57,793 nucleotides of DNA, taken from positions 1 through 57,793 of the forward strand of contig CADCIB010000017.1 in the NCBI GenBank assembly GCA_902801375.1, given 5' to 3'. Positions 2,591 through 5,772 of the stretch are shown piece after piece. Under the pieces are notes generated by a model. That model was not told the DNA's origin. It worked only from the letters and a program-made list of their open reading frames with translations, and did no database searches. The position numbers and the translations under genes are program-made. Positions within the stretch are counted from its first letter, which is position 1, and each line of letters begins with the position of its first letter. The stretch is from an uncultured Prevotellaceae bacterium (lineage in GTDB: Bacteria > Bacteroidota > Bacteroidia > Bacteroidales > Bacteroidaceae).

Positions 2591-3208
2591 ATGAAGAAAG
2601 TTTTTATGATGGCTTTGGCAGCTGCCGCTCTTACGTTCAGCAGCTGCGGTAACAAGACTAACGTTCCTAACGAGTCTGAGATTGTTGACTCCACGGAAGT
2701 GGCTCTCGAAGAGGCAAATACTGCCGCTGACGAGGTAATCGCACAGCTGACAGAGAAGATTGAAGCTAAGGACGTGTCTGCCCTGCAGGCTGCTCTTGAA
2801 ACCGTAAAGGCAAAGGTGAGCGAGTTCCTGGCCAATAATCCCGAAATTGCCAAGGAGTATCTGGCTAAGGTTCAGAACTTCCTGAAGGAGAACGCCGACA
2901 AGATCAAGTCCGTGATTGGCGACAACGCAGCCGTTTCTTCTCTCGTTGATGGCATCGCAGCCATCCCCAGCGAGAGTGTTGACGCGCTGACCGGTGCCGG
3001 CGATGCCCTGAAAGCTCTGGGTATTGACCTGACCGAGAAGGCTGGCGACGCTGTTGAAGGAGCCAAGGATGCCGCTGCTGACGCTGTAGAAGGTGCCAAG
3101 GACAAGGCTGAGGAGATCTCCAACGAAGTGAAGGAAAACGTTAAGGAAAAGGTTGGTGACGCTATCGACAAAGGTGCTGCTGATGCCAAAAAGAAACTGG
3201 GACTCTAA
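2591..3208 (+). CDS. Alanine-rich helical lipoprotein, unknown function
   Basis: 205 residues. The N-terminus is a lipoprotein signal (hydrophobic stretch then FSSCG, Cys at about 19). The rest is almost entirely Ala, Lys, Glu and Asp and is predicted helical. The last ~60 residues repeat an AxDAVEGAKDxA pattern typical of amphipathic, LEA-like or apolipoprotein-like helices. Such a protein could lie along a membrane surface or in the periplasm, but that is inference. TATCTTTA at 2516-2523 is a weak -7 box. A strong terminator follows at 3241, so it is monocistronic. Codon usage (AAG, GCT, CTG rich) suggests high expression. Confidence 0.75.
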   Translation: MKKVFMMALAAAALTFSSCGNKTNVPNESEIVDSTEVALEEANTAADEVIAQLTEKIEAKDVSALQAALETVKAKVSEFLANNPEIAKEYLAKVQNFLKENADKIKSVIGDNAAVSSLVDGIAAIPSESVDALTGAGDALKALGIDLTEKAGDAVEGAKDAAADAVEGAKDKAEEISNEVKENVKEKVGDAIDKGAADAKKKLGL

Positions 3209-3270: not shown

Positions 3271-3332
3271 GTAAGGTAAGACCGTCTTTGAAGTCCTTTG
3301 AATAAAAAAATCAACAAAAAGTTGCGGAAATA

Positions 3333-3364
3333 TTTGGCAGATTGAAAGAATAGTCGTATTTTTG
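3333..3364 (+). promoter_or_regulatory. Promoter of the trp leader/trpB2 unit
   Basis: TTTGG at 3333-3337, 19 nt, TATTTTTG at 3357-3364. The spacing equals that of the promoter at 379-410. Transcription would start near 3370, about 30 nt before the leader peptide ATG. Confidence 0.75.
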
Positions 3365-3398
3365 CCAACGAATTAAAACAAAAACATCAAAAACAAGT

Positions 3399-3455
3399 AT
3401 GAAACAGATAGCTAACTTCTGGTGGTGGCAGCGCTCAAGATTCGAAAAATCGTGA
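3399..3455 (+). CDS. trp-type leader peptide (18 aa, three consecutive Trp)
   Basis: A small open frame encodes MKQIANFWWWQRSRFEKS and a stop. Three consecutive Trp codons in an 18-residue peptide, in front of a terminator and a tryptophan synthase gene, are the hallmark of ribosome-mediated transcription attenuation: a ribosome stalled at Trp codons prevents the terminator from folding. A small hairpin (CTCAaGATT with AATCgTGAG, 3434-3456) covers the end and stop codon of the peptide and could be the pause structure. A clear antiterminator was not found by eye. Confidence 0.8.
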   Translation: MKQIANFWWWQRSRFEKS

Positions 3456-3497
3456 GAAGATAGCCGCGTACCTGAGAGTAAGCATTCATCATAAAGA

Positions 3498-3526
3498 GGC
3501 CTGTCGTTCTTGCGACGGGCCTTTTT
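3498..3526 (+). terminator. Attenuator terminator upstream of trpB2
   Basis: GGCCTGTCG (3498-3506) pairs with CGACGGGCC (3513-3521) around a six-base loop, followed directly by TTTTTA. It sits between the Trp-rich leader peptide and the trpB2 start, so it would end transcription when tryptophan is plentiful. Confidence 0.85.
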
Positions 3527-3576
3527 ACTTGACAAGGAACATCATTCATTATTCATTACTAAAAAACAAATCAATT

Positions 3577-4944
3577 ATGAAAGAAAGACAAAAACGGTTT
3601 ATCTTGCCAGAGAGCGAGATTCCCACACAATGGTACAACATTCAGGCCGACATGCAAAACAAACCCTTGCCGCCGCTGAACCCCGCAACGAAAGAGCCCC
3701 TGAAGGCAGAAGACCTGTTCCCTATCTTTGCTGAAGAACTGGCCCGCCAGGAAATGAATCAGACCGATGCGTGGATAGACATCCCGCAGCCCGTGCGCGA
3801 AATGTACAAATACTACCGCTCCACCCCGCTGGTGCGCGCCTACGGTCTGGAAGAAGCCATCGGCACTCCCGCCCATATCTATTTCAAGAACGAAAGCGTC
3901 AGTCCCGTGGGCAGCCATAAGCTGAACTCGGCTTTGCCACAGGCCTACTACAACAAGATGCAGGGTGTCACCAACATCACCACAGAGACGGGAGCCGGCC
4001 AATGGGGTGCAGCTCTCAGCTACGCCGCAAAGGTATTCGGGATGGAATGTGCTGTCTATCAGGTGAAAATCAGTTATCACCAGAAGCCCTACCGCCGCAG
4101 CATCATGCAGACCTTTGGGGCAACAGTCGAGGCTTCGCCTTCGATGTCAACACGTGCCGGAAAGGACATCATCACCCGCGACCCGATGAACCAAGGCTCG
4201 TTGGGAACAGCCATCAGCGAGGCTATCGAACTGGCCATGAGCACGCCCAACTGTAAGTATACACTTGGTTCGGTGCTCAATCACGTTGCCCTGCACCAGA
4301 GCGTCATCGGTCTGGAAGCGGAGAAACAGATGGCGATGGCAGGTGAATATCCCGATGTGGTGATTGCCTGCTTCGGCGGCGGATCCAACTTCGGCGGCAT
4401 CTCCTTCCCCTTCATGCGCCACAACATCCTGGAAGGGAAGAACACGCAGTTCATCGCCGCAGAACCCGCATCCTGCCCCAAGCTGACACGTGGTGTCTTC
4501 CAATACGACTTTGGTGATGAGGCCGGCTACACGCCCTTGCTTCCGATGTTCACGCTGGGCCACAACTTCATGCCCGCCAACATACACGCCGGAGGATTGC
4601 GCTATCATGGTGCAGGTGTTATCGTCAGCCAGCTGCTGAAAGACGGCCTGATGAGCGCTGTGGACATTCCTCAGTTGGAGACTTTCGAGGCTGGTATCCT
4701 CTTTGCCCGTGCCGAGGGCATCATCCCCGCCCCAGAAAGCAGCCACGCCATCGCCGCCGCCATTCGAGAGGCCAAAAAGTGCCGCGAGACAGGCGAGGAA
4801 AAGGTAATCCTGTTCAACCTCTCCGGTCACGGACTAATCGACATGAGCGCCTACGATCAGTACCTCTCTGGCGACCTCCGCAACTACGAAATCACAGAAG
4901 AGCAAGTGGCCGAAAACATCTCCAAACTGGAGAAAATCATCTAA
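3577..4944 (+). CDS. trpB: Tryptophan synthase beta chain, TrpB2-type
   Basis: 455 residues. It makes L-tryptophan from indole and serine in the cytosol using PLP. The fold-type II PLP motif GSHKLN carries the Schiff-base Lys115, and FGGGSNFGG is the phosphate-binding loop. Length and the extended N-terminus (about 60 residues before the STPLVRA segment) fit the TrpB2 group, which often occurs without TrpA. No other trp gene is adjacent, so it probably salvages free indole or backs up an operonic TrpB elsewhere. ATG at 3577 is chosen because an upstream in-frame ATG at 3529 lies just after the attenuator. Expression should be tryptophan-regulated through the leader at 3399-3526. Confidence 0.93.
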   Translation: MKERQKRFILPESEIPTQWYNIQADMQNKPLPPLNPATKEPLKAEDLFPIFAEELARQEMNQTDAWIDIPQPVREMYKYYRSTPLVRAYGLEEAIGTPAHIYFKNESVSPVGSHKLNSALPQAYYNKMQGVTNITTETGAGQWGAALSYAAKVFGMECAVYQVKISYHQKPYRRSIMQTFGATVEASPSMSTRAGKDIITRDPMNQGSLGTAISEAIELAMSTPNCKYTLGSVLNHVALHQSVIGLEAEKQMAMAGEYPDVVIACFGGGSNFGGISFPFMRHNILEGKNTQFIAAEPASCPKLTRGVFQYDFGDEAGYTPLLPMFTLGHNFMPANIHAGGLRYHGAGVIVSQLLKDGLMSAVDIPQLETFEAGILFARAEGIIPAPESSHAIAAAIREAKKCRETGEEKVILFNLSGHGLIDMSAYDQYLSGDLRNYEITEEQVAENISKLEKII

Positions 4945-4989: not shown

Positions 4990-5772
4990 ATGAAGAAGGT
5001 GTTTTTTTCTATCGTATTGTTTATCTTTGCGATAATAGCTGCACAAGCGGATGTGCTGGGTGAGTATAGTTTTGAGGGAACATTGGGCGACAATATTCCC
5101 GTCGTACTGAAGTTTGCCGTCAATGGCGACGAGATTGCGGTTGGTGAAATCTACTATCCCAAGGCCAAGAACCCTACCCCCATCTTGGTGGTGGGTAGCC
5201 CAACGGTGAACGGTTGGTACTATCTTGAGGAGTACCAGAGCGACGGCACCATTACCGGCATCATGTCGTTTAAGATTGAAGGCGAGGATACAGCCGAAGA
5301 TGCCTACATCTCAGAAGGCACGTGGACGAACCCCAAGACTGAGAAGCAACTCCCCATGAAGCATTTTGTGACCGTTGGGAGGATTGACGATGTGACAAAG
5401 TATCTTGACTACGAAGATCCCCAGAACATCGGGCGCGAGTATGTCTATTCTCGCTGGAATCCCAACTATGGAGCGATGATGGGCGGCTACGTGAAGTTCC
5501 GTGGAGCAGGCAAGTATAAACTGCATTTCGAAGTGAGCAATGTTCCAGGCAATATTGCGGAGGGACGGAGTGAACCCGATCGCCCGGCAATATTGGGCGA
5601 AACCACCCACGACTATTTCTATTATGAGAATGTCAACGAGTGCGGCTATGGCTTCAGCGCCCATTTCTTCAAGAAGTTCGTCGTGCTGAAGACGACCACA
5701 GGACGTGAGTCGCTCGACTGCTTCGGCATGGGTGCCGCCTTCGATGGCGTCTACATCAAGGTAAAGCAATAG
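4990..5772 (+). CDS. Secreted protein of unknown function
   Basis: 260 residues with a typical signal peptide (MKKVFFSIVLFIFAIIAAQA, cleavage before DVLGEYSF). The mature part has no cysteine cluster at the N-terminus, so it is not a lipoprotein, and is rich in aromatic and beta-strand-prone segments (GWYYLEEY, YKLHFEVSN). I recognise no catalytic motif and no named domain. It starts 45 bp after trpB2 with no terminator seen between, so read-through is possible, but a functional link is not evident. Confidence 0.7.
   Translation: MKKVFFSIVLFIFAIIAAQADVLGEYSFEGTLGDNIPVVLKFAVNGDEIAVGEIYYPKAKNPTPILVVGSPTVNGWYYLEEYQSDGTITGIMSFKIEGEDTAEDAYISEGTWTNPKTEKQLPMKHFVTVGRIDDVTKYLDYEDPQNIGREYVYSRWNPNYGAMMGGYVKFRGAGKYKLHFEVSNVPGNIAEGRSEPDRPAILGETTHDYFYYENVNECGYGFSAHFFKKFVVLKTTTGRESLDCFGMGAAFDGVYIKVKQ

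Follow-up and report, generated by a model that had tools for sequence, protein, structure and literature searches.

A trp-operon-type leader lies upstream of a stand-alone trpB2 gene in an uncultured Prevotellaceae bacterium

The stretch of DNA considered here (the window) comprises 57,793 nucleotides from the genome of an uncultured Prevotellaceae bacterium (assembly GCA_902801375.1, contig CADCIB010000017.1), and the leader and trpB2 features described below lie on its forward (+) strand. At positions 3577–4944 it carries trpB2, a stand-alone gene whose tryptophan synthase beta-like product scores above the curated cut-offs of both NF009057 (704 bits, cut-off 366) and TIGR01415 (596 bits, cut-off 518.85). 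Among the matches listed, the nearest relatives of this protein are Bacteroidota records, and the nearest solved chains by sequence are 6hul_B (named as a beta chain 1) followed by 4qys_B and 6hte_B (beta chain 2). Judged from sequence, TrpB2 probably converts indole and serine to tryptophan; the conversion of free indole to tryptophan has a precedent in the TrpB paralogues of Thermococcus kodakarensis, as cited in PMC11085991. Further upstream, at 2591–3208, lies a gene for a lipoprotein with an Ala/Lys/Glu-rich tail and a resemblance, below the cut-off, to the PG1828 family.

The interval between these two genes had been described in an initial annotation as a promoter, a Trp-rich leader peptide, a possible pause hairpin and a terminator, and re-reading of the sequence found both the parts and their coordinates to be correct. 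The promoter (3333–3364) reads TTTG-N20-TATTTTTG, with TTTG at 3333–3336 and TATTTTTG at 3357–3364, and matches the consensus for Bacteroidota promoters, TTTG / TAnnTTTG. Under a lenient pattern, a −7-like box is present in 87 of 88 copies of the element for which 80 or more upstream bases are available (one of the 89 copies described below was dropped, its upstream DNA being too short). A generic promoter scan returned one sigma-70-like promoter at 3334–3362, which is not above chance given a mean of 0.6 in shuffled sequence. The leader peptide ORF (3399–3455) encodes the 18 residues MKQIANFWWWQRSRFEKS and ends in a TGA stop codon at 3453–3455. Three tandem TGG codons at 3420–3428 form the candidate tryptophan sensor. 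Two short ORFs with three consecutive Trp codons are found in the window, against a mean of 0.07 and a maximum of one in dinucleotide shuffles (n = 60), and because the second of these (5123–5209) lies out of frame within the gene at 4990–5772, such a run says little by itself and weight is placed on conservation instead. Likewise, the 9-mer TGGTGGTGG was rejected as a stand-alone signal: it occurs at 149 places in the genome, compared with 112 for its reversed control, and so carries little meaning alone.

Four structures can be drawn on the leader. Helix P1 (3421–3472) pairs GGUGGUGGC (3421–3429), most of which is made up of the Trp codons, with GCCGCGUACC (3463–3472). Helix P2 (3434–3456), the 1:2 or pause hairpin, pairs CUCAAGAU (3434–3441) with AUCGUGAG (3449–3456) and contains the UGA stop codon. 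Segment 2, UCGUGAGAAGAUAGCC (3450–3465), is the 5′ arm of an antiterminator and can form 16 pairs with GGCCUGUCGUUCUUGCGA (3498–3515), a sequence that overlaps the 5′ arm, the loop and part of the 3′ arm of the terminator. The intrinsic terminator itself (3493–3526) has the core GGCCUGUCG/CGACGGGCC followed by the U run UUUUUACUU, the whole region ending at about 3530. The 206-nt leader folds with an energy of −55 kcal/mol (z −4.3), and none of 200 shuffled sequences was equally stable. A generic terminator scan with a tail rule found no terminator-like site at the leader because, on our reading, the U run is partly paired in a long A–U stem.

To describe how widely the element occurs, the leader in the window and seven orthologous ones were combined into a covariance model (R1), which these eight match by construction. 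The seven come from the 80 loci that carry the nearest relatives of TrpB2 among the matches listed (L003, L004, L005, L009, L012, L013 and L058); R1 gave no comparable match before trpB2 in the other 73. Weak hits close to trpB2 in two further loci (L179 and L182) were set aside because they lie 3′ of it. The seven leaders conserve the Trp codons, CTCAnGrT, TCGTGAGA and GCyGyGTA, and keep segment 2, while the stretch that links segment 2 to the terminator is mostly not conserved. The expectation that the orthologues would share the Trp-rich leader was thus borne out for these seven but not for most of the trpB2 genes examined.

Beyond the orthologues, R1 matches 147 of 200 genomes of the same genus (58 of the 86 good ones), with one match only in the window's own genome. 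A non-random set of 89 copies was inspected, consisting of the eight training sequences, 29 other best genus loci, further genus hits picked because of a double hit, a lower score or a lack of TrpD, and copies from the genomes of the orthologues. Immediately downstream lies TrpB1 in 63 of them (one being a 43-residue remnant), trpB2 in 16, TrpD in six and TrpF in two; the remaining two run off their contigs with no readable gene. Across the 200 genomes, element and TrpD occur together in 136, the element only in 11, TrpD only in 10 and neither in 43. Behind the leader, the genes of the genus (named by their best NCBIfam matches, with TrpE and TrpF under their curated cut-offs) run in the order trpB-E-G-D-C-F-A or trpD-C-F-A-B-E-G, the second order being seen, for example, at L146:3182–9916 with the same leader ahead of trpD. 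A leader peptide could be read in 88 of the 89 copies, with a median length of 18 residues (range 14–35) and three Trp codons in a row in 80 of the 88; the residues that follow (xxSRF) are often conserved. Promoter type, WWWxxSRF leader, P1, P2, antiterminator and terminator are all shared with the window, and the difference lies in the target, which is the operon in the one case and a trpB2 gene outside any trp operon in the other. By these sequence comparisons, the element is the usual leader of trp operons in this genus, and the window copy is the same leader placed on trpB2. Among 157 same-genus genomes that encode TrpB2, at least eight carry the leader at that gene (G000, G047, G070, G116, G135, G165, G172 and G173); direct scanning of 49 same-genus trpB2 surroundings gave an upstream match in G070 and G165 only, both of which were already counted. 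Two of the trpB2-linked leaders (L162:8701–8831 and L239:2728–2859) read WCW, their middle Trp codon now encoding Cys.

The proposed structures were examined in a sequence-only alignment (A3) of 87 copies, two truncated copies (L126 and L153) being left out. The columns of the tandem Trp codons are invariant or at least 90% conserved. The 16 pairs of the antiterminator are formed in 90.2% of cells, with eight pairs doubly changed; none of 500 shuffles reaches any of the five measures used and slid controls give 29–51%, figures that are not probabilities, since the structures were drawn on the window (itself one of the 87) and shuffling ignores relatedness. P2 is paired in 98.2% of cells (double changes in four of seven pairs) and the terminator in 96.8% (10 of 14 pairs), in agreement with the hairpin at the peptide stop and the terminator originally described. 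P1 is paired in 92.6% of cells with eight of its nine pairs varying on one side only; because the UGG codons are fixed, it shows little covariation of its own. Taken together, P1, P2 and the terminator are 95.9% paired with 15 doubly changed pairs. The alternative structures are mutually exclusive: the antiterminator, with its covariation over the 87 copies, excludes both P2 and the terminator, as a check suggested alongside the annotation had anticipated.

The effect of a translating ribosome was mimicked by removing the bases that it would cover (assumed to extend 13 nt from the start of the A-site codon), and the probability of the antiterminator was taken once its 3′ side was complete but before the 3′ arm of the terminator was. 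With the ribosome at the third Trp codon the antiterminator probability exceeds 0.5 in 83 of the 87 sequences and at the first Trp codon in 71, compared with 10 without a ribosome and one with the ribosome at the stop codon. For the window, the corresponding probabilities are 0.96, 0.96, 0.01 and 0.00. Among the 16 trpB2-linked copies the counts are 16, 11, two and one. The five that do not favour the antiterminator at the first Trp codon count against the switch, as do L009 and L013, which favour it without a ribosome, and L237, which does so with the ribosome at the stop codon. Equilibrium folding with the full terminator prefers the terminator in every ribosome state (86–87 of 87), so that the switch is invisible there; because equilibrium always favours the terminator, the switch would have to be kinetic, with an advantage to the structure made earlier. 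Attenuators usually rely on a kinetic advantage of this kind.

Sequence, homology to the trp-operon leader of the genus, covarying alternative structures and gene content, together with a predicted fold that responds to ribosome position, make it very probable that trpB2 is controlled by a ribosome-mediated transcription attenuator of the trp-leader type, the layout initially recognised. In the predicted order of folding, a ribosome supplied with charged tRNA-Trp would pass the UGG-UGG-UGG run, reach UGA and cover segment 2, allowing the terminator to form and transcription to end before trpB2. When tRNA-Trp is uncharged, the ribosome would stall at the Trp codons, P1 and P2 would melt and the freed segment 2 would pair with the emerging terminator arm and loop, letting polymerase enter trpB2. 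In the absence of translation, P1 and P2 would trap segment 2 and termination would follow by default. Read-through would then depend on tRNA-Trp, and TrpB2 may serve in indole salvage.

A piece of trp-operon leader might instead have come to lie before trpB2 and act now merely as a constant leaky terminator, or as a promoter. Leader debris does occur: at L155:2708–3012 (genome G150), an attenuator and the first 43 codons of trpB1 lie downstream of two tRNAs, with no further operon gene within the 10 kb of that locus and the trp operon of G150 located elsewhere, which suggests that pieces of the leader get copied to other places. The Trp codons are reduced in four of the 16 trpB2 leaders compared with four of 72 others (Fisher p 0.03, post hoc), and P1 pairs are kept less well in the trpB2 copies (124/144) than in the others (598/636), both of which count against the attenuator reading. 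However, the window has lost none of the 46 pairs that make up the four structures, the seven orthologous leaders from other genomes retain both Trp codons and segment 2, and the 16 trpB2 copies hold the antiterminator nearly as well as the rest (helix A 130/144 and helix B 94/112 pairs, compared with 597/639 and 434/497 in the 71 others). The same 16 copies contain 28 double-change cells, 11 in helix B, one in helix A and 16 in the terminator, with none in P1 or P2. A decayed leader is accordingly improbable.

Very improbable, in our view, is an additional role in trans for the leader RNA or its peptide once transcription has terminated, with any effect on trpB2 being secondary. Such action has a precedent in peTrpL of Sinorhizobium (PMC7298713), and the frequent conservation of residues beyond WWW would fit it, but the xxSRF codons also form the 5′ arm of P2, and this second use can account for their conservation. 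That a T-box or a metabolite-binding riboswitch regulates trpB2, as a structured 5′ leader ahead of a Trp gene might suggest, can be all but dismissed, since neither was found at gathering scores in the whole window or, among the nine matches listed, at relaxed E-values in 3330–3560, and the conserved core surrounds a translated ORF.

At gathering scores, Rfam finds only a tRNA in the window. The attenuator is nevertheless a homologue, though not filed as a member, of Bacteroid-trp (RF01692), against which it scores 40.9 bits (cut-off 49) with a match (3376–3505) that ends inside the 5′ arm of the terminator. At E-values up to 1 this is the sole match in the window's genome; because weak matches also occur in three of 14 control genomes (one of them over the cut-off), the score alone is modest evidence. 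Several same-genus trp leaders pass the cut-off (L146, 59.1 bits; L247, 56.5; L246, 56.4; L155, 49.3), amounting to four of 24 loci tested (14 operon-type and 10 trpB2-linked) and none of the 10 trpB2-linked ones. What the family shares with the window is a Bacteroidota leader peptide that is rich in Trp and precedes a tryptophan gene. Table 1 of Weinberg et al. 2010 (PMC2864571) marks Bacteroid-trp as cis-regulatory and not as a switch, and a Flavobacterium paper places it before the trp operon.

The enterobacterial trpL leader has Trp codons in a 1:2 stem, a 2:3 antiterminator and a 3:4 terminator. The window element follows the same logic and is likened to it by architecture, not by homology; trpL has two Trp codons, whereas the window leader has three and controls one enzyme. 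In many trp-operon copies of the genus (L118:1501–1638, for example) the Trp codons continue as TGGTGGCGC, a run of nine bases also present in E. coli trpL, a likeness that perhaps arose by convergence via the P1 stem.

The element is attached to a single TrpB2 gene, as initially described, and the window's genome (a 3.48 Mb draft, 96.28% complete) is likely to lack a trp operon, though a compact one could lie in sequence that the draft does not cover. TrpD was not found there, nor were TrpB1, TrpA or TrpC, the only answer being a cross-match to TrpB2; the one weak match to TrpE is named isochorismate synthase by NCBIfam, and operon DNA is limited to the attenuator plus nine scattered matches of 30–50 bases. 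Going by the sequence of this genome, the trp-operon attenuator survives only on a putative indole-to-tryptophan enzyme. The same genome encodes a tryptophanase, TnaA (L272:1492–3030), which scores 922 bits with NF053783 (cut-off 750) and 519 with the older TIGR02617 (cut-off 825.8); inspection by eye of 480 bases around its start revealed no WWW leader. The cell therefore probably makes indole from tryptophan (TnaA) and remakes tryptophan from indole and serine (TrpB2). In a genome lacking the operon, the attenuator would make conversion of indole to tryptophan dependent on tryptophan starvation, and gating of this sort would stop TnaA and TrpB2 from working against each other. Among the genomes of the orthologues, that of L005 (G202) similarly shows no operon, with no TrpC, TrpA or TrpB1 and a single element, on trpB2. 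A general link between operon loss and attenuated trpB2 is unsupported: of the seven ortholog genomes that carry the element, six keep the operon (G200, G201 and G203–G206), and G208 and G214 have neither operon nor element.

In a TrpB2 tree (136 rows, quick search) the 16 attenuated genes require 10 changes, at least six of them on well-supported branches, and in a tree of the element itself (87 rows, bootstrap unsettled) the trpB2 copies require six changes, of which at least three are forced. A single origin of all 16 trpB2-linked elements is modestly disfavoured (p-AU 0.033 over 85 rows, after removal of the long rows L234 and L236), and the nine copies in the clade of the window are compatible with a single origin (p 0.56). 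The best reading is that the leader moved from the operon to trpB2 at least twice, the change counts not separating gains from losses. Because trpB2 surroundings vary, the route of transfer is not readable from synteny: searches for four neighbours of the window's trpB2 in 24 trpB2 loci gave a single partial match (32%, to the upstream gene at 731–2449, in L005), with trpB2 itself recovered in all 24 as a control, and when longer flanks were compared against 14 loci, none of the listed pairs involved the window. We offer as a tentative proposal, somewhat short of even confidence, that the trp leader is a portable cassette that has been copied to trpB2 at least twice within a genus-level group, can outlive the operon in lineages turned tryptophan auxotrophs and may there be converted from a feedback switch for synthesis into one that opens indole scavenging on starvation, opposite the cell's own tryptophanase.

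A related arrangement is found in Corynebacterium, where one genome has candidate attenuators before both trpB1EDGC and trpB2A (PMC1262725); there, in another phylum, trpB2 sits with trpA in a biosynthetic operon, whereas in the window it stands alone. Among the top-ranked matches in the openly licensed literature, we found no report of a Bacteroid-trp-type element on a stand-alone trpB2. The class of RNA is known; what is apparently new is the trpB2 target, the repeated transfer to trpB2 and the retention of the leader without its operon. The window offers a clean case of an attenuator that switches its target gene and survives loss of its original pathway, and the 87-sequence alignment gives the full terminator and antiterminator anatomy. 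Prevotella-like bacteria of gut and rumen live among indole producers. Were TrpB2 gated by tRNA-Trp, indole would be taken back only under tryptophan starvation, which would bear on indole levels in the community.

Two other loci in the collection are unusual. At L147:2939–4770, in a genome (G137) that is 99% complete, TrpF-like and TrpG-like genes come after the attenuator; no TrpB1, TrpD or TrpE homologues were seen at the locus and TrpD was not found in the genome, so that this is perhaps a decaying operon. A single genome record, G207, contains four trpB1 genes with four attenuators (loci L207, L214, L223 and L226; locus L002 belongs to this genome too), which possibly reflects a mixed assembly.
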